Positions 8,337 through 55,189 of a stretch of DNA of 64,000 nt are shown one piece after another. Position 1 is the first letter of the stretch. Each line of letters begins with the position of its first letter. Source of the stretch: Amycolatopsis sp. NBRC 101858 (GTDB lineage Bacteria > Actinomycetota > Actinomycetes > Mycobacteriales > Pseudonocardiaceae); assembly GCF_030269325.1 (NCBI RefSeq), contig NZ_BSTD01000007.1:310001-374000 (forward strand), in the 5' to 3' direction. Made by a program: the position numbers and the translations under genes. The notes under the pieces are model-generated. The model did no database searches, had not been told where the DNA came from, and saw nothing but the letters and a program-made list of their open reading frames with translations.

Positions 8337-10213
8337 CGCCGCGGCCCCTGAACGTGCGGGCCGTTGACCGTCGTCGACGGGAGCGGGCGGAGGTAGCCGT
8401 CGGTGCCGACCGGGGTGTCGCCGCGGCGGATCGCGGCGACGTCGGCCTGCAGCTGCGGCCAGTCCGGTCGTTGCTCGACGTCGATGGTGCGGCCGAGGAT
8501 GGGGCGGAGGTTGCCGTGCAGGATCAGGACCCGGCCGCGGTCGAGGGTGCGGATGTCGCCGGCGCGTAGCGTCGGGACGGTTTCCTCGCCGGTGGCGCCG
8601 CGTCCGGTGCTGAAGATCCCGTCGCTGTGGTGCTGGTGGGTTCGGCGGCGGTGGTGCCCGGCCAGCGTGGACAGCCATTCCAGGGTCTTGTCGTCCTTGA
8701 GCCCGGGGAAGGCGGTCAGGGTGAGGGTGTTGTCGATCAGCTGCAGCCGGCCCGGTTCGCCGTAGAGCTCGTCCAGCTGGGAGCGCGACTGCGCGGACCA
8801 GTGGATCAGCACCCCGCGGCCCGCGGAGTCGGCGATGATCGCGGGCAGCCGCGGCACCGGCGTCCCGGCGAACAACTCGTCCAGGATCGCTGTGGTCGGC
8901 GGTTCCAGCCGGCGGCGTTCGTACCGCAGGGCGGTGTCCTGGGCCGTGGTGAGGATCTGCTCGACCAGCGCGGTCAGCACGGCGCGGGCCTGGGGCGCCT
9001 GGTGTTCGCCGGCGACGATGAACAGGCTGCCCCGGCGGCGGAGGAACTCGTCGATGTCGAGTTCCTCCCCGGGGGCGGGGGTGGCGAACCTCCGGATGGC
9101 GGGGTTCATGAACGGCTCGATCGCCCGCCGCACCGACATCCAGACCGCGTCGGCGGTCTCGGCGACCATCCCGATCTCCGAGCGCAGGTTGAACGCCAGC
9201 TCCGGGAATCGGTGCCGCAGCAGCTCGACCGGTTCCTGATCCGGTGGCTTGGTGACCGACCAGACGACCAGGTCGGTCACCGTCCGGTGATACAGCGCGG
9301 CGGCAAGCAGGTAGGCCTGCAGCACGATGGTGGCGCGGCCGCGGAAGACCGCGTCGTTGCCGCCGACGTCGTCCAGCGCGAGTGAGGACGCTTCGATCAG
9401 CGTCTCGGCGCGGCGGAGCGCGACGGCGGGGTCGGCACAGCCGGTGATCGGGGACCAGCGGGCGTGCGCGGGCCAGGACAGGGTGCCGGTGGCGTCGATC
9501 ACCAGCACCGGCCCGGCGCCCGGGCGGCGGGTGCGGGCCAGCAGGCACCACTCGGCGAGGTCGTTCTTCGTCGTCGACGCGATCAGCGCGCCCGGCGCGG
9601 CGAGGACCTTGTGCACCAGGTCGGTGCGGGACTTGCCCGAGCGGGTCGGGGCGATCGTCCCGGTCGGGGTCTCCAGCGAAGTGACCAACTGCCGGCGCCG
9701 GGGTCCGCGGTGCAATGGCACCGCGATCTGCTCGACCGGCGCGGTCCGGCGTTGCTCGTCGGTGAGGTCACCGCGGGTCCACATCGCAGTCTTGCGTGCG
9801 GCCTCGACCGACAGGTTCTTCGCCATCTCGCGTCGAGTGGCGTGCCCGGCATCGGTCGGTGCCACCCGTCGCCAGACCGGGATCGCCGTGCCGACGGTGA
9901 GACCGGCGGTGAGCATGGTGATCGTGGTGAACCAGATGTAGAACGCCAGCTGGTGATCGCTGACCGCACCCGACCACGGGACCGGCAGCGCCGGCCCGGG
10001 ATCGGCGGCGTGGAAGGCGACCATCACGGCGAACCCCGGCCAGGCGGTGATCGGCGGCCACGCCCAGCCACCGGTGTGGAAGCCGGTGACCAGAACGGCG
10101 GCGGTGACGACGATCGCGCCCAGGGCGCACAGGATCGCCAGGGCGGCGATCGCGAGGCCCATCAGGGCGACGTCGCGGTCGAGGTTGAGTGTGTCGGTGC
10201 GTGTATGCGGCAT
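8333..10213 (-). CDS. Type IV coupling protein, VirD4/TraG family
   Basis: The 626-residue protein begins with two or three hydrophobic segments (about residues 15-45, 50-70 and 90-115). It then has a cytoplasmic P-loop ATPase with Walker A APTRSGKSRT, a VLVIDATGTL strand, Walker B TTAILDELF and a downstream IHWSAQSRSQL segment typical of TraG/VirD4. Coupling proteins bring the relaxase-DNA complex to the secretion channel and energise transfer at the inner membrane. ATG 10213 is preceded by a strong CGGGAGGAG ribosome-binding site, and a 45-bp gap separates it from the peptidoglycan hydrolase gene upstream. The stop overlaps the next ATG. It sits with VirB4-, VirB6- and VirB8-like genes, so function in conjugation is well supported. 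Confidence 0.9.
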   Translation of the reverse strand: MPHTRTDTLNLDRDVALMGLAIAALAILCALGAIVVTAAVLVTGFHTGGWAWPPITAWPGFAVMVAFHAADPGPALPVPWSGAVSDHQLAFYIWFTTITMLTAGLTVGTAIPVWRRVAPTDAGHATRREMAKNLSVEAARKTAMWTRGDLTDEQRRTAPVEQIAVPLHRGPRRRQLVTSLETPTGTIAPTRSGKSRTDLVHKVLAAPGALIASTTKNDLAEWCLLARTRRPGAGPVLVIDATGTLSWPAHARWSPITGCADPAVALRRAETLIEASSLALDDVGGNDAVFRGRATIVLQAYLLAAALYHRTVTDLVVWSVTKPPDQEPVELLRHRFPELAFNLRSEIGMVAETADAVWMSVRRAIEPFMNPAIRRFATPAPGEELDIDEFLRRRGSLFIVAGEHQAPQARAVLTALVEQILTTAQDTALRYERRRLEPPTTAILDELFAGTPVPRLPAIIADSAGRGVLIHWSAQSRSQLDELYGEPGRLQLIDNTLTLTAFPGLKDDKTLEWLSTLAGHHRRRTHQHHSDGIFSTGRGATGEETVPTLRAGDIRTLDRGRVLILHGNLRPILGRTIDVEQRPDWPQLQADVAAIRRGDTPVGTDGYLRPLPSTTVNGPHVQGPRR

Positions 10214-44787: not shown

Positions 44788-45878
44788 CCGACCTGCTGTA
44801 TTCCGACGTCGAGGAAGACCTGCGGGCCTCCGTCCGGGACCTGCTCAAGGCGAAGGCCACTCCCGAGGCGCTGCTGGCCCGCGTCGAGACGGCCGAGGGC
44901 TACGACCTGAAGCTGTGGCGGACGCTGGCCGACGAGGTCGGCGTGGCCGGGCTGGCGGTCCCCGAAGAGCTGGACGGGCACGGCGCGTCCGCCCGCGAGG
45001 TGGCCGTGGTGGCCGAGGAGCTGGGCCGCAGCGTGGCGCCGGTGCCGTTCCTGGGCAGCGTGGTGCTGGCGACGACGGCGCTGGTCCGCGCGGGCGCGGA
45101 CGACTTCGTCCGCCGGCTCGCGACGGGTTCGGCGATCGGCGCGCTGGCCGTGCCGCTGTCGACGGCGCCGGGTGCGGGCTTCCCGTCCTCGGTGACGGCC
45201 TCGCCGGACGGCACGCTTTCCGGCCGGGTGGGCACGGTCGCCGACGCGTCGGTGGCGGACCTGCTGGTCGTCCCGGCCGCGGGCCCGGACGGGCCGGGGC
45301 TGTACGTCGTCTCGGCGGCCGACGCGACGGTGTCGGAGCTGGTGTCGTTCGACCTGACGCGCCGGGTGGCCGACGTGGAGCTGTCGAACGCGCCGGCGAC
45401 GCTCGTGGCATCGGGCCCGGACGCGGCTTCGGCGCTGGAGGAGGCGCTGCTGTTCGGGGCGGGGATCCTGGCGTCGGAGCAGACCGGTGTCGCCGAATGG
45501 GCGTTGACGGAGACGGTGTCGTACCTGAAGGGCCGGTACCAGTTCGGCCGCCCGGTGGGCGGGTTCCAGTCGCTCAAGCACCGGCTGGCGAACCTGTACA
45601 CGGACCTGGTCCTGGCCCGCGCGGCGGCGCGTTATGCGGCGGATTCCCTGGCCACGGGCACCGACGTGCCGATCGCGGTGGCGGTGGCGCAGGCGCGCAA
45701 CGGCCCGATCGCGGTGAAGGCCGCGGAGGAGGCGATCCAGCTCCACGGCGGGATCGGGATGACGTGGGAACACCCGGCGCACCTGTACCTGAAGCGGGCG
45801 AAGGCGGACGAGCTGGCGCTGGGGACGCCGGGCAAGCACCGGGCCCGGCTGGCCGAGCTGGTGGACCTGCCCGCCTGA
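44784..45878 (+). CDS. Acyl-CoA dehydrogenase, beta-type (partner subunit)
   Basis: The 364-residue protein is a shorter acyl-CoA dehydrogenase whose C terminus reads IQLHGGIGMTWEHPAHLYLKRAK. It does not have the SIEGGTSE catalytic loop of the preceding gene, as expected of beta subunits that contribute FAD contacts but not the base. The central region includes FGRPVGGFQSLKHRLANLYTD. Overlap with the alpha gene supports 1:1 assembly. The operon ends here, followed by a strong bidirectional hairpin. Confidence 0.87.
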   Translation: MTDLLYSDVEEDLRASVRDLLKAKATPEALLARVETAEGYDLKLWRTLADEVGVAGLAVPEELDGHGASAREVAVVAEELGRSVAPVPFLGSVVLATTALVRAGADDFVRRLATGSAIGALAVPLSTAPGAGFPSSVTASPDGTLSGRVGTVADASVADLLVVPAAGPDGPGLYVVSAADATVSELVSFDLTRRVADVELSNAPATLVASGPDAASALEEALLFGAGILASEQTGVAEWALTETVSYLKGRYQFGRPVGGFQSLKHRLANLYTDLVLARAAARYAADSLATGTDVPIAVAVAQARNGPIAVKAAEEAIQLHGGIGMTWEHPAHLYLKRAKADELALGTPGKHRARLAELVDLPA

Positions 45879-45886
45879 CCCAAAGT

Positions 45887-45935
45887 CCGTGAATGCCACG
45901 TTGAGGGCCTTGGTCCCCCAACGTGGCATTCACGG
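45887..45935. terminator. Long bidirectional hairpin between convergent operons
   Basis: CCGTGAATGCCACGTTG (45887-45903) pairs perfectly with CAACGTGGCATTCACGG (45919-45935) around a 15-base loop, a 17-bp stem. It lies after the dehydrogenase operon and overlaps the last codons and stop of the convergent AfsR-like gene, so it can terminate both. The long perfect stem and sequence character suggest it may belong to a dispersed genomic repeat family; that needs a genome search. Confidence 0.72.
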
Positions 45936-48900
45936 CTTTCGGGAGCCGGACAGCAGGCGGCGGGCTTCGGCCAGTGCGGGAGCGGCGCCGGCCGCGGCGA
46001 GGAGCTTTTCGGCCTCGCGCCAGCACTTTCGGGCCGCTTCAGGGCCGGTGGTGACGGCGCGGGCGCTGCCGAGGACCAGCAGGGCCCATGCCTCGCCCAA
46101 GCGGTGGCCCGCCTGGCGGAAGCCGTCGAGCGCGCGGGCCGCTTCGGTTTCGGCGCGCTCCGGGTGGCCGCCGGTGAGGGCCGTGGTCGCCAGGGTCGTC
46201 CGGGCTTGTTCGGCCAGCAACCGGAACCCGCCTTCTTCGGCGGTGCGCAGGGCCGACTCCGCGTCCGCGGCCGTGATGTCCACAGAGGACATACCGATCG
46301 CCGTCGTCAGCTCGCCGCGGAGGTAGCAGATCTTTTCCGCCAGCGCGTGGGCTTCGCCGTAGTCGGCGAGTGCGGCCGCCGCGTCGCCGGTCTGGCGGTG
46401 GAGGTCGCCGAGGGCGCTGAGCGCGTCCACCTCGAAGCGCTGGTTACCCGCTTCGCGCGCCACCGTCACCGCGAGCCGGACGGCCGGCCAGGCCCGCGCG
46501 ACGTCGCCGGTGACCCGGTGGACCGCCGCGAGCCGCACGAGCGCGTCGGCCTCGTCGTCGCGGGAACCCAGCTCCCGCAAGGCATCCAGGGCTTCGGTGA
46601 GCGCGGCGAGCGCGCGGGGCAGGTCGCCGGACACGCGGTAGCCGTAGCCGAGGTTGCACTGCGCGATCGCTGCCGCGTGGGGTGAGCCGAGCCGGCGGCA
46701 GAGCTCCAGCGCCTGCTCGTTGTGCCGGATGCCCTCGGCGAGCTCGCCGTGCTCCATCAGCACGGCACCCAGGTTGATCAGCCCGTTCGCGGCCCGGATC
46801 GGCGTGCCGTGCCGCCGGGCGCCGGCCAGCGCCGCCGTGAAGTGCTCGACCGCCCGGTCGAGCCGGCCCAGGTCGAGGTGCACGACGCCGAGGGCGTGCA
46901 GCACCGAGTCCGCGCCGTCGCGGGCGCCGGCGACCCGGTAGGACGCCTGGGCGGCTTCCAGCTCGGTGAGCGCGGCCGGGTAGTCGCCGCGGCTCCAGGC
47001 CAGCGCGCCCAGGCTGTGCCGCATCGCGCCCGCCGCACGCTCGTCCCCGGCCCGCCGCGCCGCGGCCAGCCCCGCGGTCGCGGCCGCCTGCCACTCCGCG
47101 TCGAGCCGGTGCGAGTGGAAGAACCCGCGCAGCAGGTCCGCCGCCTGCCAGGCGAACGGCCCGGTCGCCGACCGGATCGCCGCCAGCAGGTTCGCGTGCT
47201 CGGCCAGCAGCCAGCGGCGGGCTTCGGCCGGTTCGGCGGCCTCGGTGCCGCCGGGCGAGCCGGACAGCAGCTGAAGATCCGGGTAGAGCGCGGCCGCCGC
47301 CCGGGCCCCGGTGCGCAGGTAGTGCTCGAGGAGCCGGTCGAGGGCGGCCGCCCGGTCCGCTTCCGGCAGGCCGTCGCGGGCGCGGGCGATCGCGTACCCG
47401 CGGAGCAGGTCGTGCAGCCCGAACCGGTCGTCGCCCCGGGACTGCACCAGGTGGCTCGCGGCCAGCTCCCGCAGGAGCGCACCGGCCCGGACGTCGTCGG
47501 CCCCGGCCAGCGCCGCCGCGCTCGGCACGTCGATGTCGGCGCCCGGCACCAGCCCGAGCAGGCGGAAGAACCCCGCGGCGGCCGGGGAAACGGCGTCGAA
47601 CGAGAGGTCGAAGGCCCGGCGCACCCCCAGCTGCTCGGCGCCGGGCACCGCCAGCCGCGTCACCAGGTCGGGCCCGGCCAGCTCGGCGAGGTAGCCGCGC
47701 AGCGACCGGTCCGGCCACAGCGCCAGGTTCGCCGCGACGATCCGCAGGGCCAGGGGCAGCCCGGCACACAGCCGCACCAGTTCGCGCGCCGCGTCTTCCT
47801 CCGCGTGCACCCGGTCCGGTCCGACGACCGCGGCCAGCAACGCCAGCGAGTCCTCCGGCGGCAGCTCGGCCAGCTCGACGCGCCGGGTGTCCACCGTGGC
47901 GGTCAGGCCGCCGAGCCGGTCGCGGCTGGTGATCAGCACCGCGCAGCCGGGGCTGCCGGGCAGCAGGGCGCGGACCTGGTCCGGGCCGGCCACGTTGTCC
48001 AGCACGATCAGCACCCGCCGCTCGGCCAGCACCGACCGGTACAGCGCGGCGGCGTCGGCGAGCTCGGTCGGAACGTGCCCCGGCCGGACGCCGAGCGCGT
48101 GCGAAAACCGGGTCAGCACCTCGATCCCGGCGAGCGCCGGGAGCGTCGAACTGCCCTGGAGGTCGACGAAGAGCTGGCCGTCCGGGAAGTGCCGGGCGGC
48201 CCGGTGCGCCCAGTGCACGGCGGCGGTCGTCTTGCCGACGCCGGCCGGCCCGACCAGCAGCGCGATCGGCGGGTGCGTGGCGGCCGGCCGGTCCGGCCCC
48301 AGCACCGCGTCCAAAGTGGACATCAGAGTGGCCCGGCCGGCCAGCGCCCCGACGTCCGGCGGCAGCTGGCGCGGCCGGAACCGCGCTCGCGCGGCGGCGG
48401 GCTCGCCGGCCAGTACCGCCTGGTGGGCGTGCCGCAGCCGCTCGCCGGGGTCGATCCCGAGCTCGTCGGCGAACCTCCGGTGCACCGTGCGGTACACCTC
48501 GAGCGCGTCGGCGCGGCGCCCCGAGCCGTGCAGGGCCTCGAGGTACAAGGCCCAGAACGCCTCTTGCCAGGGGTGTTCGCCGGCCAGCCTGCCCAGCTCG
48601 GCGGTGACCTCGGCGTGGCGCCCGAGCTCGAGGCTCACCTCGAAGAAGCGTTCCTGAGCCCACAGCCGCTCTTCGGCGGGCCCGGCCTCGACGCGGCCCA
48701 GGATCTCCGCCGGGAGGTCGGCGAGCAGCGGGCCGCGCCAGCAGGCGAGGGCGTCGGCGAGCAGCGCGCGTTCGGCCTCGGGCGCGGGCTCCGCGCGGGC
48801 GTCGGCGAGCAGCCGGCGGAAGCGCAGCAGGTCGTGCCGCTCGGGCCGCGCGTGCAGCAGGTAGCCGGTCGGCCGGGTCTCGACGACGCCGTCGCCGAGC

Positions 48901-49118
48901 ACCCGCCGGAGCCGGACGGTGTGCACCTGGATGCTCTTGCGCGCGGTCTCCGGCGGATCGTCGCCCCACAGCAGCTCGGTGAGCCGGTCGAACGACACGA
49001 TCGCGTTCGCCCGCAGCGCCAGGACGGCGAGCAGCGCCCGCACCTTCGGCCCGTTGACCGGCACCGGAACGCCGTCGCGCAGGACCCGCAACGGTCCCAG
49101 CACCCCGAATTCGAGCAC
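45930..49118 (-). CDS. AfsR/SARP-type transcriptional regulator (OmpR HTH + BTAD + NB-ARC + TPR)
   Basis: A 1,062-residue regulator starting at GTG 49118. An N-terminal OmpR-like winged helix (LLAVLALRANAIVSFDRLTELLWGDD) and bacterial transcriptional activation domain (about 95-245) are followed by an NB-ARC ATPase with Walker A GPAGVGKTTA and Walker B VLIVLDN. A TPR-rich C-terminal 400 residues follows. This is the architecture of AfsR-type activators of secondary metabolism. Three heptamer repeats lie just upstream of its start, and the P450 and aromatic peptide genes lie upstream on the same strand with a 66-bp gap. It is therefore a candidate pathway-specific regulator of that cluster. 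Its C-terminal codons overlap the hairpin. Confidence 0.9.
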   Translation of the reverse strand: MLEFGVLGPLRVLRDGVPVPVNGPKVRALLAVLALRANAIVSFDRLTELLWGDDPPETARKSIQVHTVRLRRVLGDGVVETRPTGYLLHARPERHDLLRFRRLLADARAEPAPEAERALLADALACWRGPLLADLPAEILGRVEAGPAEERLWAQERFFEVSLELGRHAEVTAELGRLAGEHPWQEAFWALYLEALHGSGRRADALEVYRTVHRRFADELGIDPGERLRHAHQAVLAGEPAAARARFRPRQLPPDVGALAGRATLMSTLDAVLGPDRPAATHPPIALLVGPAGVGKTTAAVHWAHRAARHFPDGQLFVDLQGSSTLPALAGIEVLTRFSHALGVRPGHVPTELADAAALYRSVLAERRVLIVLDNVAGPDQVRALLPGSPGCAVLITSRDRLGGLTATVDTRRVELAELPPEDSLALLAAVVGPDRVHAEEDAARELVRLCAGLPLALRIVAANLALWPDRSLRGYLAELAGPDLVTRLAVPGAEQLGVRRAFDLSFDAVSPAAAGFFRLLGLVPGADIDVPSAAALAGADDVRAGALLRELAASHLVQSRGDDRFGLHDLLRGYAIARARDGLPEADRAAALDRLLEHYLRTGARAAAALYPDLQLLSGSPGGTEAAEPAEARRWLLAEHANLLAAIRSATGPFAWQAADLLRGFFHSHRLDAEWQAAATAGLAAARRAGDERAAGAMRHSLGALAWSRGDYPAALTELEAAQASYRVAGARDGADSVLHALGVVHLDLGRLDRAVEHFTAALAGARRHGTPIRAANGLINLGAVLMEHGELAEGIRHNEQALELCRRLGSPHAAAIAQCNLGYGYRVSGDLPRALAALTEALDALRELGSRDDEADALVRLAAVHRVTGDVARAWPAVRLAVTVAREAGNQRFEVDALSALGDLHRQTGDAAAALADYGEAHALAEKICYLRGELTTAIGMSSVDITAADAESALRTAEEGGFRLLAEQARTTLATTALTGGHPERAETEAARALDGFRQAGHRLGEAWALLVLGSARAVTTGPEAARKCWREAEKLLAAAGAAPALAEARRLLSGSRKP

Positions 49119-49135
49119 TTCTCCGCACCCCCCGC

Positions 49136-49164
49136 TGACCGGTCAAACCGGTCATTCCCGGTCA
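49136..49164 (-). promoter_or_regulatory. Heptamer direct repeats upstream of the AfsR-like gene
   Basis: On the gene strand, TGACCGG occurs three times with 10- and 9-base periodicity (plus-strand CCGGTCA at 49139, 49148 and 49158), ending in a TGACCGGTCA palindrome. SARP proteins bind heptamer direct repeats spaced by about one helical turn, so these are candidate autoregulatory sites. Position is 18 to 46 bases before the start codon. Confidence 0.5.
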
Positions 49165-49184
49165 CGAGGGTAGCGGGAAAAGGA

Positions 49185-50453
49185 TCACCCGAGCGGAACG
49201 GGCCGCACCACGGGCGGGGCGAGCAGCGAGCCGAACACGGGATCGGGGTCGACGACCTGCAGGCCCTGGCCGTCGAGGACGTCCGAGCAGGCGACCACCC
49301 GGGCGGTCACCCGGTTGACGAACCGCGACCCGACGCACGCGGCGCTGCCGAAGCCGTAGGGCAGGTAGCGGGCTTTGTAGCCCTCGGGTGGCCGGTCCCA
49401 CCGCTGCGGCCGGTACTCCCCCGGCTCGGACCAGAAGTCCGGGTCGCGGTGCAGCAGGTAGGTGCACAGGTAGAGCCGATCGCCGGGGACGAGGTCGACG
49501 CCGCCCAGCTCGGTCGCCTCGGTGACGGTACGGGCAAGCTGCCAGGCGACCGGCCACAGGCGGAGTGCCTCGCGGACGCGGTGCTCGGCTGGCGCGGCTT
49601 CCGCCGTTTGCCGGACTGTGTCGATCGGGGCGGGGTGCTCGGGCGCGGCGCCTGCTCGCGGCCGCAAGACCGTGCCGATCGGGTCGGGCTCCCGGGCAGG
49701 CCGCTCGGCAGGCGCGGCATCCACCGGCTGCCCGGCCGTGCCGATCGGGTCGTGCTCCCGAACGCGCGGGCGCAGGATCGTGCCGGCCGGGGTGCCGGGG
49801 TGCCAGCCGCGGTCGAGCAGGATGGTCCAGGCGGCCACCATCGACGCGGCCCGGCAGACCGCGCCGACCAGGCCGTGCAGGGCGAGCGCGACGTCGTCCG
49901 AAGCGCCGAGCGTCGCCCGGAACGCTTCGGGAAGCGCGGCGTCGTTGCCCGCCGCCCAGCGGTGGAGCGTGGCGTCGGCCCGGCTGTGCGCGAGCCGTCC
50001 CCGCAAGCGCCGCAGCGTCGAGCCGGCCCGATCGAGTCCGTCGGAGGCCGCCAGCGCGTCCCGCAACGGTGCTTGGGGCAGGCCGGGAAAGAGCTGGTCG
50101 CCGAACAACCGGAGGTACACGCCGGCGAGCGCGCCGGGCCACGACCCTCGCGAGGCTGCCAGTTCGGCCCTGATCGCGTCGTCCGGGACGGCTTGCCAGG
50201 CCCGGTCCAGCTCGCGCCCCAGCGCGGCGTTGACCGGGCGGCTGCGGTCGGACCCGGGCACCCAGTCGGCGACAGCACCGAAGGTGGCCGCCTTGGCTTC
50301 GAACGGGCGGGTGGTCGAGGCGAGCGCGGTGCGGACGAGGTCGTCGCCGGACACGAGGTAGCGGCCCGGCCCGAACGGCCGGATCGGCCGCCGGTCGTCC
50401 GCCCAGCCGGCGAGCGTCGGCAGCGGGTCGGCGAGGATGGCGGTGGTGCGCAC
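49185..50453 (-). CDS. Cytochrome P450 next to a small aromatic peptide gene (candidate RiPP-crosslinking enzyme)
   Basis: A 422-residue P450 from GTG 50453 with GGGAGA nine bases upstream. Heme ligand Cys373 lies in YGFGSAACVGSRF, and ExxR is E295-R298 in REALRLWP. The I helix (GAVCRAASMVAAWT) lacks the usual acid-Thr pair. Between the I helix and ExxR there is an extra Pro/Ala-rich segment (about 232-292) containing three degenerate repeats beginning DPIGT, DPIGT and PIDT, not seen in ordinary P450s. It lies 60 bp after the stop of a 31-residue peptide gene with an aromatic C terminus, with a 15-bp hairpin between. This arrangement resembles P450-modified RiPPs such as atropopeptides (tryptorubin type). 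Substrate assignment is inference. Confidence 0.82.
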   Translation of the reverse strand: MRTTAILADPLPTLAGWADDRRPIRPFGPGRYLVSGDDLVRTALASTTRPFEAKAATFGAVADWVPGSDRSRPVNAALGRELDRAWQAVPDDAIRAELAASRGSWPGALAGVYLRLFGDQLFPGLPQAPLRDALAASDGLDRAGSTLRRLRGRLAHSRADATLHRWAAGNDAALPEAFRATLGASDDVALALHGLVGAVCRAASMVAAWTILLDRGWHPGTPAGTILRPRVREHDPIGTAGQPVDAAPAERPAREPDPIGTVLRPRAGAAPEHPAPIDTVRQTAEAAPAEHRVREALRLWPVAWQLARTVTEATELGGVDLVPGDRLYLCTYLLHRDPDFWSEPGEYRPQRWDRPPEGYKARYLPYGFGSAACVGSRFVNRVTARVVACSDVLDGQGLQVVDPDPVFGSLLAPPVVRPVPLG

Positions 50454-50474
50454 GGAAGTCTCCCGCGGAGGCGG

Positions 50475-50507
50475 CCGTGCCCGCGGCGGAAGCCGCCGCG
50501 GGCACGG
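50475..50507. promoter_or_regulatory. Strong hairpin between the peptide gene and the P450 gene
   Basis: CCGTGCCCGCGGCGG (50475-50489) pairs perfectly with CCGCCGCGGGCACGG (50493-50507) across a three-base loop. It sits in the 60-bp gap between a very small peptide gene and its enzyme gene. In RiPP operons such leaky terminators raise precursor mRNA relative to enzyme mRNA, or protect the short transcript. Function here is inferred from position. Confidence 0.6.
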
Positions 50508-50513
50508 GGGTGA

Positions 50514-50609
50514 TCAGTAGATTTCGTAGTAGATGACCCAGGTGTTGCCGAGCCGGCGGTTGCGCACGCTGCGCACCACGGAACGGGTGAAGAAGCGGAT
50601 CGTCGTCAT
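50514..50609 (-). CDS. 31-residue aromatic-tailed peptide, putative RiPP precursor
   Basis: The ATG at 50609 follows a strong AGAGGAGAA site, giving a 31-residue peptide with an Arg-rich leader (MTTIRFFTRSVVRSVRNRR) and the tail LGNTWVIYYEIY. The tail has one Trp and three Tyr and resembles the short aromatic cores that P450s crosslink in tryptorubin-like atropopeptides. No Cys is present, which excludes lanthipeptide or sactipeptide chemistry. The start is chosen over longer frames because upstream codons encode Pro/Arg-rich shadow. The gene is one of the shortest in the window and would be missed by length cut-offs. Mass spectrometry would be needed to show a product. Confidence 0.62.
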   Translation of the reverse strand: MTTIRFFTRSVVRSVRNRRLGNTWVIYYEIY

Positions 50610-50640
50610 GGCTGTTCTCCTCTTTCCCAGTGGGTGTTCA

Positions 50641-50994
50641 CTACCAGCGGAGGCCGATGTTCGACGGGCCCGCGGGCCCGGAAACGACGCCCTCCAGTTC
50701 GCCGGCCGGCACGCCACGGCAGACCCACGACTGCGGGCCGCTTTCGGCGGCGAAACCGGTCCGGCAGACCACACCGCCCGGGCCGCGGACGACCCATTCG
50801 GCGGGTCCGCTTCCGTGCACGTCCGCGTCGACCGACAGGGTTCCGCCCGGGAACCAGACCGGTGGGGTGACGCAGGCGCTGTCGGGGCAGGTGCTCGAGA
50901 CGCCCCCTTGTTCGGCGGCCGACGCGACCGGCCCGGCGAAGACGCTCGCCACGACCGCGCCCACGACCAGCGCGCACTTCAGTGTGCTGTGCAT
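50641..50994 (-). CDS. Small secreted protein with four cysteines
   Basis: A 117-residue protein from ATG 50994 behind GAGGGG. A Sec signal peptide (residues 1-28, CALVVGAVVASVFAGPVASA) precedes a mature domain with four Cys (SSTC, SAC, VVC, WVC), probably two disulphides, and Gly/Pro/Trp-rich beta segments. No family is recognised. It lies 31 bp upstream of the peptide gene on the same strand and could be cotranscribed, but may simply be a neighbour. Confidence 0.68.
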   Translation of the reverse strand: MHSTLKCALVVGAVVASVFAGPVASAAEQGGVSSTCPDSACVTPPVWFPGGTLSVDADVHGSGPAEWVVRGPGGVVCRTGFAAESGPQSWVCRGVPAGELEGVVSGPAGPSNIGLRW

Positions 50995-51881
50995 GGATTT
51001 CCCCTCTTCCCGGGGCGGCACTGCGCGTTCCCAGCCCGGCAGTGCGCATCGCGACCGCGACGCGGAACGTGGTTCCCCCGAAGCCCCCTCCGATGCCAGA
51101 CGGCCGCCGTTCCCCGGCATCCCCCCACGCCGTGGCCCCCAGTACCGACGGCCGGCCGCCTGACGAACCCGATCTTGCCGGGCGGCGGCTAAAGCCGGGT
51201 AAAACCGCGGGTGGGCGGGTAGTCGGGGCGTGGTGGAGACCCGCCCGGCCGCCGCCGCGCGGACCCGCCGGCCGGTGAGGTCGCAAGCCGGTCAGGCGGA
51301 CAAGTCGGCCCAGTGGACCGGCGCTACCGGCGGCCTGGCGAGGTGGGCCGTGCGCGGGCGCGGCACGAGGGGCGCGGCGGGCAGCGCCGGTGCCGGTGCG
51401 AGGTATGCGGTGCAAGGCGCGCGGGGCTCGGTGCAAGGGGCGCGGCGGGCAGTGCGCGGCGCGAGGGGCGCGGTGGGCGGCGCGGAGCGCGGCACGAGGG
51501 CGCAGCGGGCAATGCGGTGCCGGTGCGCGGCGCGAGGGGTGCGTTGGGCCGTGCCGGTGCGGCGGGTGCGGTGCGGAGCCACCCCGAGCGCGCGGGCGCG
51601 GCGAACACCACCCACCCCGCTCCGCCACCCCGATCCCGCGCACCGGGCACTCGGGCGCCGGGCGCCGGGCGCCGGGCGCCACCGACCCTCCGCCACCACC
51701 CCCGCCCCGCCCCGCCCCGCCCCAACTCGCCCCCATTTCGTGAATACTCTTCAGATTCTTTCGTATTTTCGCTCATCTGAGCGAAAATTCTGTGAGCCAG
51801 ACCACTCAAGAGGCAAAAGGGTGGCAAAAGTGCCCGGCTTCCCATGGTTCTCCCCACCCGTCGGGATCTAGCCTGGGCGCC
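50995..51881. repeat. Low-complexity GC-rich intergenic region with tandem repeats
   Basis: Almost 900 bp without a supportable gene. From about 51340 to 51560 it is dominated by GCGCGGCGGGC-like purine-rich strings. CGGGCGC repeats four times at 51652-51679, and CCCCG-type pentamers repeat around 51700-51722. Open frames on both strands are Arg/Ala/Pro-rich and have no ribosome-binding sites, so they are rejected. An AT-rich stretch with a palindrome near 51766 precedes the next gene. Confidence 0.6.
51766..51787. promoter_or_regulatory. AT-rich palindrome upstream of the hydrolase gene
   Basis: TTTTCGCTCA and TGAGCGAAAA form a perfect 10-bp inverted repeat around two central bases, about 95 bases upstream of the start at 51882. 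It could be an operator for the hydrolase or the end of the neighbouring repeat-rich region. Its AT content contrasts sharply with the GC-rich sequence before it. Confidence 0.45.
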
Positions 51882-52769
51882 ATGGAATTCGCCGTCGCGC
51901 CGACGGATGCCGGTGGGCCCGCCGCCTTGGAAGAAATGACCGTCGTCGTCGGGGGTCATCGGCACAGTGCGCTCGCGGCCGGGCCCGAAACCGGCGAACT
52001 CGTCCTGCTGCTGCACGGCTGGCCGGAATTCGCCGATGCCTGGACCGAGCAGCTGCACTCCCTCGGCGAAGCCGGTTACCGCGCCATCGCCGTCGACCAG
52101 CGCGGCTATGCCCGCCAAGCGCGTCCCGACGGGGTCGAGCACTACTCGATCGAGCACCTGGTCGACGACGCCCTCGCCTTCGCCGACAGCCAGGGTGCCG
52201 ACCGGTTCCACCTGGTCGCCCGGGACTGGGGCGGCATGGTCGCCTGGGCGCTGGCCACCGCGCACCCCGGCCGGCTGCGGTCGCTGACCGTGCTGTCGAC
52301 CCCGCACCCGTCCGCTCTCCAGCGCGCCGCCGCCACCGACGACGGGCAGTTCCACGACCTCGGCTACATCCGCTTCTTCCGGCGCGGCGTCGGCAAAGCC
52401 GAGAAATTCCTCTTACGCGACGAAGCCGCACAATTACGCGCTGTCTACAACCGCCGGATTCCCGTCGAATTCGTCGAGAGCGCGGTCGCCCGCCTTTCCG
52501 AACCGGGCGCGCTGACCGCGACGCTGAATTGGTACCGCGGCGCCACGAACGACGTATTCGACGTCCCGGCCGGCCGCATCACCGTGCCGACGCTCTACCT
52601 GTGGGGCAGCGAGGACCCGTACCTCGGCCAGAGCGCCGCGGAGCTGACCGTCCACCACATCGACGCCGAGTACCGCTTCCAGATCATCGAGGGCGCGAGC
52701 CAGTGGATGGCGATGGAAGCACCCGACGAGGTCAGCGCCCTCCTGCTGGACCACCTCCGGCTGCACTAG
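51882..52769 (+). CDS. Epoxide-hydrolase-like alpha/beta hydrolase lacking the usual catalytic His
   Basis: A 295-residue alpha/beta hydrolase with oxyanion motif LLHGWPEFADAW and nucleophile Asp in LVARDWGGMVAW, typical of soluble epoxide hydrolases and dehalogenases. The charge-relay acid is likely in LWGSEDPYLG. Where relatives have AGHW it reads GASQWMAMEAPDEV, so the His base appears replaced by Gln. It may therefore be inactive, use another residue, or have a binding role. ATG 51882 is chosen over an upstream in-frame ATG because the extra 30 residues are not family-like. Its stop overlaps that of the convergent repeat protein. Confidence 0.8.
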   Translation: MEFAVAPTDAGGPAALEEMTVVVGGHRHSALAAGPETGELVLLLHGWPEFADAWTEQLHSLGEAGYRAIAVDQRGYARQARPDGVEHYSIEHLVDDALAFADSQGADRFHLVARDWGGMVAWALATAHPGRLRSLTVLSTPHPSALQRAAATDDGQFHDLGYIRFFRRGVGKAEKFLLRDEAAQLRAVYNRRIPVEFVESAVARLSEPGALTATLNWYRGATNDVFDVPAGRITVPTLYLWGSEDPYLGQSAAELTVHHIDAEYRFQIIEGASQWMAMEAPDEVSALLLDHLRLH

Positions 52770-55189
52770 CCGGTCTTGCGGACCAGCCCGGTGTAGCCGA
52801 CCAGCGCGAGCGTGGCCAGCGCCCAGATCGCGGCCTGCACCAGCCAGATCGCCACGGTGAACCACTGCCCGGCGGCGATCCCGGTGTTGAGGTCGCACCG
52901 CCCGCGCACCCCCGGCGACAACGGCAGCCCGCGGTCCAGGCCGACGCCGATCAGCTCCACGGTCGTGCACGGCGTCCCACGGGCGGCCGTGAGGTCCGAG
53001 GTGTGCTCGGCGGCGCGATGACCGGCGTCGCCGACGTGCCCGGCCCAGAGCCCCAGTCCCCCGGCGGCGACCACGGCGAGCAGCAACGCGGCCGCCGTCC
53101 GCCGGGCGCGGTAGCCGTACCCGGCGAGGGCGCCCCACAGCCGGTGGAACCGCCGGGCCGGCCAGCCGCCGATCGCCTCGGGAGCGCGCCGGTGGAGGTC
53201 CCGCTGCTGGGCGATGAGGATCTGCCGGGCGTTGCCGTCGTGCCCGGCGGCCCGTTCCGCCGCGGCCAGCCGCTGGTAGGGCCCGGGCCGGTACGCGGTG
53301 GTGTGGTCCCGGATCAGGTCGAGCCACTCGCGCCAGGTGGCGTCACCGAGCGAGCCGAACCGGAAGCCGTCGAGGTCCACCCGGCCGGCCGGGCCCACCA
53401 GTTCGGCGGGGAGGAAGACCGGCCCGTCGACGACGGCGTCCTCGAGGTCCACGAGGGTTCCCCCGTCGCGGTGGGCCAGTTCGGCGCCGGTGAAGCTCAG
53501 CTGACCGCCGACGTGCGTCCCGAGCAGGTGGATCGTGGGGTCCTCGCCGGCGCTGGTCCCCCGCAGGCCGCTCAGCATCAGGCTGTCCCGGACCTCGCAC
53601 CGGTCGGCGACCAGCACCGGTCCCGCGTCGTTCGTGACGGCGGCGCCGGCGAGGGTGGCCGAGCCCTGGACCCGGGCCGACCGCAGGCTCAGCGCACCCA
53701 GCTCGGACGAGCAGGTCACCTTCACTTCGACGAGCTCGAGGTAGCTGCCGACCCGCAGGTCGTCGGCGCTGAAGGCGGGGCCGGTCGCGTTGGCCAGTTC
53801 CGCGCCGGGGAGCCGCAGCTGGCTGCCGACCTCGGCGTCGTGCAGCCGGAGCGCCCCCTCCTCCCCCGCTCCGGCGACGGACACGCCGGTCAGGTCCAGG
53901 TTGCCGCCGACGTGCAGGCCGTCGGCGTACAGCGCCGGGCCGGCGTCGTTGGTGATCCGGGCGCCTTCGAGGTACAGCTCGCCGGCGATGCGGGCGCCGA
54001 GCAGGCGGACCGTGCCCGGTTCGCCGGAGCCGGCCGCGCTGGTCTCCTGGAGGTGGGCGTTGCCGTCGACCCGGAGCCGGTCGCCGCTCAGCGCCGCCCC
54101 GGAGTCGTTGGCCAGCTCCATGCCCTCGAGGTAGCAGTTCCCGCCGATGTGCGCACCGAGCAGGCAGAGCGCGCCGTACTCGCCGGAGCCGCGCACTTTC
54201 ATGCCTTCGCCGGAGAAGCTGTCCTCGACCCGGATGCTGTCGGCGCTCAGCCCCCGGCCGCCGCTGCTGGTGATCGCCGCGCCGCCGAGCTCGATCTGGC
54301 CGGCGATCCGCGCGCCGACCAGGTCGATCGCGGCACCGGCGGCGGTCACGGTGACACCGGCGAAGCGGAGGTCGCCGGCCCGGAGGCGGTCGGCCGCCAG
54401 CCCGGGCCCGCTGTCGTTGGTGAGCACGGCCGCCCCGAGCGCGACCTCACCGGACACGTGGGCACCGAGCAGGCGGACCGCGCCGTCCTCACCGGCGCCG
54501 GTCACCGTCGCGCCGGCCAGGCGCAGGTCGCCGTCGACGACCACGCCGTCCGCGTGCAGGGCGGGCCCGGACTCGTTGGCCAGCACCGCCTCGTCCAGCG
54601 AGAGCTCACCGGACACGTGGGCACCGAGCATCCGGACCGCACCGAGGTCACCGGCGCCGGTCGCCCGCAGGCCACGGCCTTTCAAGCTCCGGCTTTCCCC
54701 GGAGTCGAAGTACACCGCGGGACCGTCGCTGCTGCGGACCTCCGCGTCGGTGAGGATGGTCAGGCCGTCGACGCGGGCAGCGCGCAGGCAGATCACGCCG
54801 AACTCGCCGGAGCCGGTCGCGCGGACCCCGCTCAGGTCGAGGTCGTGGTCGACCCGGACGCCGGTGCCGTCGAACCCGGCGATCCGGCTGCCGGACAGGT
54901 CGAGCCACGGGAGCCGGGCCCGCCGCGCGCTGATCGTGTTCACGGCCACGCACTCGACCAGCGCGAGACCCACTCCGGCTTCGACGTGGTCGAGGTCGAG
55001 CGTCCCGGCGATCCGGGCGCCCTCGACCCGCACCCCGCGCGGGTCCACCGGACCGCGGAGGCCGAGCAGCAGCTCGCGCAGCACCACGGCCCGCACCGGA
55101 GCGTCGGTCACGTGAACGAGGCCGCGACGGGCGGCGTCGACCAGCTCCCGCTCCGCTCCGGTCAGCTTGTCGAGAACGGGCAGCGTCAC
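52766..55189 (-). CDS. Giant beta-helix-like repeat protein with C-terminal membrane helices
   Basis: An 807-residue protein starting at GTG 55189. Residues 45-590 contain about ten copies of a roughly 50-residue unit with the pattern LLGAHVSGELSLDGA, then an N(D/E)SGPAL(H/Y)AD stretch, VDGDLRL and TGAGE, implying a long right-handed parallel beta-helix. Residues 590-690 form a charged helical linker (FRFGSLGDATWREWLDLIRDHTT and YQRLAAAERAAGHDGNARQILIAQ). Two to three transmembrane segments lie near the C terminus, with a Cys pair between them that could be outside the cell. There is no signal peptide, so the repeats are cytoplasmic and tethered to the membrane. No activity is recognised; similar proteins have been loosely labelled membrane oxidoreductases, which the sequence does not support. 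Confidence 0.75.
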   Translation of the reverse strand: MTLPVLDKLTGAERELVDAARRGLVHVTDAPVRAVVLRELLLGLRGPVDPRGVRVEGARIAGTLDLDHVEAGVGLALVECVAVNTISARRARLPWLDLSGSRIAGFDGTGVRVDHDLDLSGVRATGSGEFGVICLRAARVDGLTILTDAEVRSSDGPAVYFDSGESRSLKGRGLRATGAGDLGAVRMLGAHVSGELSLDEAVLANESGPALHADGVVVDGDLRLAGATVTGAGEDGAVRLLGAHVSGEVALGAAVLTNDSGPGLAADRLRAGDLRFAGVTVTAAGAAIDLVGARIAGQIELGGAAITSSGGRGLSADSIRVEDSFSGEGMKVRGSGEYGALCLLGAHIGGNCYLEGMELANDSGAALSGDRLRVDGNAHLQETSAAGSGEPGTVRLLGARIAGELYLEGARITNDAGPALYADGLHVGGNLDLTGVSVAGAGEEGALRLHDAEVGSQLRLPGAELANATGPAFSADDLRVGSYLELVEVKVTCSSELGALSLRSARVQGSATLAGAAVTNDAGPVLVADRCEVRDSLMLSGLRGTSAGEDPTIHLLGTHVGGQLSFTGAELAHRDGGTLVDLEDAVVDGPVFLPAELVGPAGRVDLDGFRFGSLGDATWREWLDLIRDHTTAYRPGPYQRLAAAERAAGHDGNARQILIAQQRDLHRRAPEAIGGWPARRFHRLWGALAGYGYRARRTAAALLLAVVAAGGLGLWAGHVGDAGHRAAEHTSDLTAARGTPCTTVELIGVGLDRGLPLSPGVRGRCDLNTGIAAGQWFTVAIWLVQAAIWALATLALVGYTGLVRKTG

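Follow-up and report, generated by a model that had tools for sequence, protein, structure and literature searches.

Two groups of ribosomally synthesised and post-translationally modified peptides (RiPPs) whose precursors are paired with a cytochrome P450 serve here as the reference. Atropopeptides are defined by the leader motif KSLK, or one of its variants RSLK, ESLK, KSRK, KPLK and PSLK, combined with an xWxxxx core (PMC11450843). Trp occupies position 2 of the core, and most cores are hexapeptides, 14 octapeptides and 3 heptapeptides being listed as well (PMC11450843). In their products, biaryl or C-N bridges start from this Trp, and their P450s belong to an atropopeptide-modifying clade (PMC11450843). 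The biarylitide precursor consists of 5 residues, encoded by an 18-bp gene (PMC13417212). The DNA analysed here, referred to as the window, is a stretch of 64,000 nucleotides from Amycolatopsis sp. NBRC 101858 (contig NZ_BSTD01000007.1, positions 310,001 to 374,000), in which a gene for a 31-residue peptide directly precedes a P450 gene. All window features given below with coordinates are on the minus strand. A sequence-only reading had proposed that the two genes form a RiPP pair like those behind tryptorubin-type atropopeptides and biarylitides, possibly with a new product class. The pair as such is strongly supported by co-conservation, by a control on the P450s of the same genome and by related P450-peptide pairs. 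Judged from its sequence, it is a real, conserved P450-RiPP cassette, related to known P450-crosslinked peptides but with a leader and a core of its own.

Conservation of the precursor gene beside its P450

The precursor gene (50514-50609) has 31 codons and starts with ATG behind the ribosome-binding site (RBS) GAGGAGA. The P450 gene (49185-50453), which starts with GTG after GGGAGA, encodes 422 residues matching the Pfam p450 model at E 6.8e-20. Both agree with the earlier description of a tiny gene with a strong RBS directly before a P450. The 31-residue product, MTTIRFFTRSVVRSVRNRRLGNTWVIYYEIY, is predicted to divide at a putative boundary into the leader MTTIRFFTRSVVRSVRNRRLGNT and the core WVIYYEIY. 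It has no Pfam match at E 0.01 and no NCBIfam match at E 0.1. A literature search with the core strings gave no relevant match, an earlier prediction in genome-mining papers being still possible.

A homologous precursor gene is located just upstream of the P450 in 8/8 other complete P450 loci, seven of them from Amycolatopsis and one from a genome of another genus of the same family, Pseudonocardiaceae. In seven loci, 87-104 nucleotides separate the end of the precursor from the point where the P450 match begins; the eighth is L033, the locus of strain NRRL B-16535. The pair is therefore present, window included, in 9/9 complete loci of the P450 clade, across three genomic settings. Lack of conservation of the peptide among homologues of the P450 locus had been named in advance as grounds for rejecting the pair; the opposite was found.

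The 80 genomes of the genus were scanned with a precursor profile, by which the 8 precursors already known and 3 more were detected. The lowest-scoring of these three has E 1.1e-9, and the match that comes next has E 0.0115. Eleven readable precursors were counted, leaving out the decayed one of genome G065. Homologues are 29-31 residues long and share the leader pattern RFF-x-x-S-x-x-R-x-x-R and the core pattern W-x-x-Y-Y-x-x-Y, the latter replaced by W-VIDCEI-Y in one intact pair, at the NRRL B-16535 locus. Alignment of nine precursors gives M1, R5, F6, F7, S10, R13, S14, R16, G21, W24 and Y31 as invariant columns. W24 and Y31 are fixed in 11/11 precursors, while Y27 is kept in 10/11 and Y28 in 9/11. 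The proportion of nonsynonymous differences is below that of synonymous ones in 35/36 comparisons between precursors; in the remaining one (window and L034) the two values agree to two digits.

The window P450 is matched at E 1e-20 in 15/80 Amycolatopsis genomes. Nine of these matches belong to its clade, one of them (G023) ending at a contig edge, one is a fragment (G034) and five are more distant. In the family, 14/390 genomes have a P450 match at E 1e-30. The order, sampled with 397 genomes, and the class, sampled with 394, yielded no further clade member; few candidates per genome were scored there, and the absence is accordingly not firm. A plasmid search with the window P450 returned 17 records, of which none reached a coverage of 80%.

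Some copies of the cassette are incomplete. G052 has an intact precursor before a P450 with an internal deletion, and G063 has a precursor with the core WVIYHVNY but no P450 that could be detected. Both genes of G065 are decayed, the precursor having lost its Trp and its start codon, and G034 has pieces of the P450 without a precursor. Decaying or orphan copies (L092, L093, L094, L066) were thus observed in 4/80 genomes. Such turnover of the pair, by gain as well as by loss, is a usual feature of specialised metabolism. The precursors of G063 and G052, together with the Arg-rich composition, would also suit a free-standing cationic peptide with the P450 as an incidental neighbour. Against this stand the presence of the pair in all complete loci and settings, and the finding that precursors accompany a lost or broken P450 in just 3/80 genomes, the copy without start codon and Trp included; such a peptide is hardly credible as an explanation.

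The intergenic hairpin and related P450-peptide pairs

The 60 nucleotides between the precursor stop and the P450 start (50454-50513) fold into a hairpin of -41.9 kcal/mol (z -4.54, 0/200 shuffles as good), so that the hairpin already noticed between the two genes proved to be real; no U-tract is present in the window. A stem-loop is found at this position in 9/9 loci, with z values from -2.4 to -6.4 in eight and of -0.28 in L033. Comparison of the window with the four closest loci shows five base pairs preserved through two-sided changes, all of them in the window's sequence, which makes them one lineage's worth of evidence. A terminator scan of 49000-51800 did not call the intergenic hairpin an intrinsic terminator, and an Rfam scan of 45000-55000 detected 0 families at gathering score. 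Such a hairpin is usually read as setting the ratio of peptide to enzyme.

The next-closest P450s likewise adjoin short genes for aromatic-tailed peptides, led by a strong RBS and located downstream of the P450. In five Amycolatopsis sister loci, a second P450 gene comes after the gene for a peptide such as MSKIFRAALSALNIRRSDRQYRWYLYHHI; in L047 this second P450 matches Pfam at E 2.8e-22. The conserved arrangement of these five genomes (L043-L047), made up of a P450, a small peptide with a YRWY[LVY]YHHI tail and a second P450, suggests a further P450-RiPP family. G145 and G147, both from a different genus, have the downstream peptides MMAMLKRVFTATPPQRWIWH and a K variant, and an Embleya plasmid has the peptide MMAIIRRILTNTPPLIWNPKDPW downstream of its P450. 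In these three pairs the peptide genes, directly behind the P450 and with a strong RBS, have RWIWH or WNPKDPW tails and a similar MMA leader (L064:7299-7361, L065:7391-7453 and L112:3945-4016).

These arrangements bear on the role of the hairpin. A short open reading frame (ORF) containing a single Trp codon and three for Tyr, then a hairpin and an oxidase gene, would fit in outline a Trp/Tyr attenuator, in which the small ORF would be a leader peptide, the hairpin would regulate the P450 and the peptide would not be a product. In G145, G147 and Embleya, however, the peptide gene lies downstream, and attenuation of that P450 is impossible; the five Amycolatopsis sister peptide genes are downstream too, though there a second P450 follows. 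Moreover, the part of the leader without Trp or Tyr codons is also conserved, comprising 9 of the 11 invariant columns, and YY is swapped for DC at one locus. Attenuation is for these reasons regarded as very unlikely.

The pairing was compared with the genomic background by a strict filter, which accepts an RBS-led ORF of 12-40 residues whose last nine include three or more aromatic ones (W, Y, F, H), Trp among them. Other P450s of the window's genome served as control, 43 from 40 stretches, L137 and L152 giving none by the filter. The ends of the clade P450s were set by hand, as the heme-loop pattern called for an initial Phe where most clade members carry Tyr. This filter was passed by 8/9 members of the clade, 7/8 relatives and 0/43 control P450s, the eighth relative, Embleya, passing a looser filter only. 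The search for short genes beside P450s of this subtype, which had been suggested as a check, thus found them at 8/8 other clade loci and at most relatives, and the proposal of a RiPP pair is upheld by this contrast together with the co-conservation. In a tree of 60 P450s, the 17 sequences of clade and relatives form one group (support 100/100), within which the clade is supported at 100/100 and the relatives at 96/92.

The P450 and the predicted product

The window P450 has the heme loop YGFGSAACVG and the I-helix stretch VGAVCRAA, without an acid-alcohol pair. Read from the alignment, the I-helix site is [VTI]GA[VIL]CRA in 9/9 clade members, and the pair is present in 0/9; searched by pattern, the acid-alcohol motif was found in 36/43 control P450s as against 0/8 relatives. 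Its absence would be in keeping with oxidation of aromatic side chains in place of hydroxylation.

The P450 also contains an insertion of 53 residues (49608-49766, P450 residues 230-282), shortly before the EALRLWP stretch. The region contains three imperfect 64-nucleotide direct repeats, 63-75% alike. The insertion had been noticed as unusual and is real, but its use as a pointer to novelty did not hold: in the alignment it is absent from 8/8 other complete homologues, and for this reason it gives no evidence for a new reaction. In L041 (412-789) a 63-nucleotide period is repeated in the same linker, with a different unit. A functional novelty is rejected on these two observations, and the insertion is best read as a tolerated, degenerate repeat expansion.

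An AlphaFold model was built for the L037 P450 fused to its precursor, and the predicted local distance difference test (pLDDT) exceeds 80 over most of the P450. A structure search with the P450 part returned a canonical P450 fold (best Z 28.2); CYP134A1 and the thiopeptide P450 TbtJ1 are tied at Z 28 among the best matches listed. P450Blt is not among the 50 structure matches listed, which carries no weight. PDB entry 9ulw is the best, and the sole near-full-length, sequence match to the P450 among the matches listed (E 2.9e-21).

The pairing of peptide and P450, its conservation, the hairpin and the P450 clade are established, while product, bonds, cleavage and activity are only predicted. 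The locus has what generally marks P450-crosslinked RiPPs, a short precursor with an aromatic core co-conserved with a P450. That it encodes such a peptide, with the P450 coupling Trp and Tyr side chains, is considered very probable, an estimate that covers the whole of this reading, the atropopeptide variant weighed below included. The precursor of 29-31 residues would outnumber the P450, with the hairpin either curbing read-through or shielding the mRNA upstream of it. The Arg-rich leader, with its RFF-x-x-S-x-x-R-x-x-R pattern, would dock on the P450, which would then oxidise aromatic side chains near the heme and couple them instead of hydroxylating them.

ScaB joins C-6 of Trp to C-3 of Tyr in W-x-x-Y substrates (PMC12352619). 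By analogy with this chemistry, and because the W-x-x-Y-Y-x-x-Y core offers two i/i+3 pairs, the bonds may be Trp24-Tyr27 and Tyr28-Tyr31, with about 2 Da lost for each. This assignment is far less sure than crosslinking itself, and its chances are put somewhat below even. A C-terminal peptide some 8-11 residues long may finally be released by host proteases, no protease gene being seen nearby; host-protease cleavage is likewise believed to occur for tryptorubin (PMC11450843).

Several points weigh against this interpretation. The intact W-VIDCEI-Y locus dispenses with both middle Tyr residues, and a fixed W24-Y27/Y28-Y31 pattern cannot hold there; the same locus fails the strict filter. The filter itself was designed with clade and relatives already in view, and the tree included no characterised P450-RiPP enzyme and no atropopeptide P450. 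In the fused L037 model the peptide has a pLDDT of about 40, by which docking is not supported. Finally, the orphan precursor of G063 persists without its enzyme.

If the crosslinked-RiPP interpretation is right, the locus is of use in several ways. P450-crosslinked peptides are compact, rigid and encodable by two genes. A genome-mining rule that requires a KSLK-type motif would miss the precursors of this clade. The 11 natural precursors, in which the Trp...Tyr frame is constant and Tyr-Tyr is once exchanged for Asp-Cys, would test the bond choice of this kind of P450, and the sister loci suggest that more RiPP families can be reached through P450s without the acid-alcohol pair.

The neighbourhood of the pair differs among loci. 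In the window and L034-L037, a gene for a small secreted-type protein precedes the pair and an AfsR/SARP-like regulator gene follows it; L041, whose upstream part is missing, shows the regulator. In the window, the former (50641-50994) encodes 117 residues, with an N-terminus resembling a signal peptide by eye and no family match in Pfam or NCBIfam. The range covered by the sequence-only reading extends to 50994 and also takes in this gene, which was left unnamed. The regulator (45930-49118) has 1062 residues with BTAD, NB-ARC and TPR domains, and homologues of both proteins were found only in the window's subgroup. L038-L040 have different neighbours, namely deaminase and luciferase-like monooxygenase genes (by Pfam on L039, the deaminase also on L040), and in L039 a divergent phage-integrase-family gene (8845-9996) adjoins the precursor. 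One weak match was seen between a window ORF about 5 kb off and L040 (30% over 93 residues). The L063 neighbourhood has the pair alone in common with the other loci at E 1e-15. No protease or transporter match was detected among the window neighbours scanned in Pfam, a scan that did not reach genes farther away. Record JOAA01000012.1 (L033 and L063) is labelled Rhodococcus rhodnii NRRL B-16535; this label is probably wrong, because the DNA of the record is part of genome G217, which is assigned to the same family as the window.

Comparison with known P450-modified peptides

The atropopeptides, such as tryptorubin A, amyxirubin and scabrirubin, resemble the present locus in the two-gene cluster of precursor and P450, in the Trp of the core and in the W-x-x-Y spacing (PMC11450843, PMC12352619), and their minimal cluster is found here. 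The precursors, in contrast, have no KSLK-type motif (0/11); Trp is followed by 7 residues in 11/11, as against 4 in the xWxxxx core, and the C-terminal Tyr is invariant. Biarylitides (P450Blt, BytO) are similar in that a P450 crosslinks aromatic residues, but the precursors described here have 29-31 residues rather than 5. Membership of either group, the part of the sequence-only reading that did not stand, is rejected, for atropopeptides by both leader motif and core length and for biarylitides by the size of the precursor.

Precursors of the atropopeptide type were sought with three different core or motif patterns. The genus (80 genomes) gave five matches, none of which falls in an ORF carrying a KSLK-type motif, their P450 neighbours being unchecked. 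The class gave matches in 0/394 genomes. In a genus taken to be Streptomyces, 14 matches were found in 12/182 genomes, and no match was a short ORF followed by a P450.

A divergent atropopeptide is a narrower alternative, overlapping with the interpretation preferred here. It would have a single Trp-Tyr bridge in W-x-x-Y, a KSLK motif that drifted to RS[VILM]R, and four final residues that are removed or play no part. In place of KSLK, the 11 precursors do hold RS[VILM]R, or RGIR in G052, a leader motif of the basic-Ser-hydrophobic-basic kind; the two-gene cluster and the conserved Trp agree with this alternative, W-x-x-Y occurs in 10/11 precursors, and xWxxYx cores are known from some Xanthomonas atropopeptides (PMC11450843). 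The motif, however, stands 5 or 7 residues before Trp, compared with the 2 implied for ScaA (PMC12352619), and Tyr31 is as invariant as Trp24. A divergent atropopeptide is accordingly judged unlikely, though less so than attenuation.

Within the preferred interpretation of a P450-crosslinked RiPP, a more specific version is put forward tentatively and with less confidence than the bonds alone. The pair would define a distinct P450-RiPP family, in which a single P450 makes a bicyclic peptide via two consecutive i/i+3 aryl bridges; at the NRRL B-16535 locus the same type of enzyme would then have to link Cys and Tyr by a thioether or close a wide ring between Trp and Tyr. At least three sister lineages of P450s from Pseudonocardiaceae and Streptomycetaceae would exist, this family being one of them, and every lineage would be paired with an aromatic peptide unrelated to the others. 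A new product class is possible.

Other cyptides, namely rubrin, lapparbin and roseovertin, also combine a leader-bearing precursor with a P450 macrocyclase (PMC12352619, PMC13383641). Rubrin and lapparbin contain Trp-Tyr bridges (PMC12352619, PMC13383641), the likeness here being one of description. The model of the aminopyruvatide P450 ApyO (NF050147), an enzyme that crosslinks YLY, matches 9/9 clade members and is the best NCBIfam match of the window P450. These matches count in favour of a crosslinked RiPP. The window protein, however, scores 53.3 bits where the cut-off is 525, with about one quarter of its length matched, and this partial match weighs on the other side. Below the cut-off, the P450 does not qualify as the ApyO type of aminopyruvatides; no MNIO match was detected among the window neighbours scanned.

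Also close are the Amycolatopsis P450-peptide-P450 loci and the pairs with WIWH and WNPKDPW tails, which share with the window the P450 superclade (100/100), an aromatic-tailed peptide and a strong RBS. They differ in that the peptide gene is downstream, that leader and core look unrelated and that five of them have a second P450. As far as their sequences can be set against published descriptions, leader and core of the present precursors are unlike those in the definitions.
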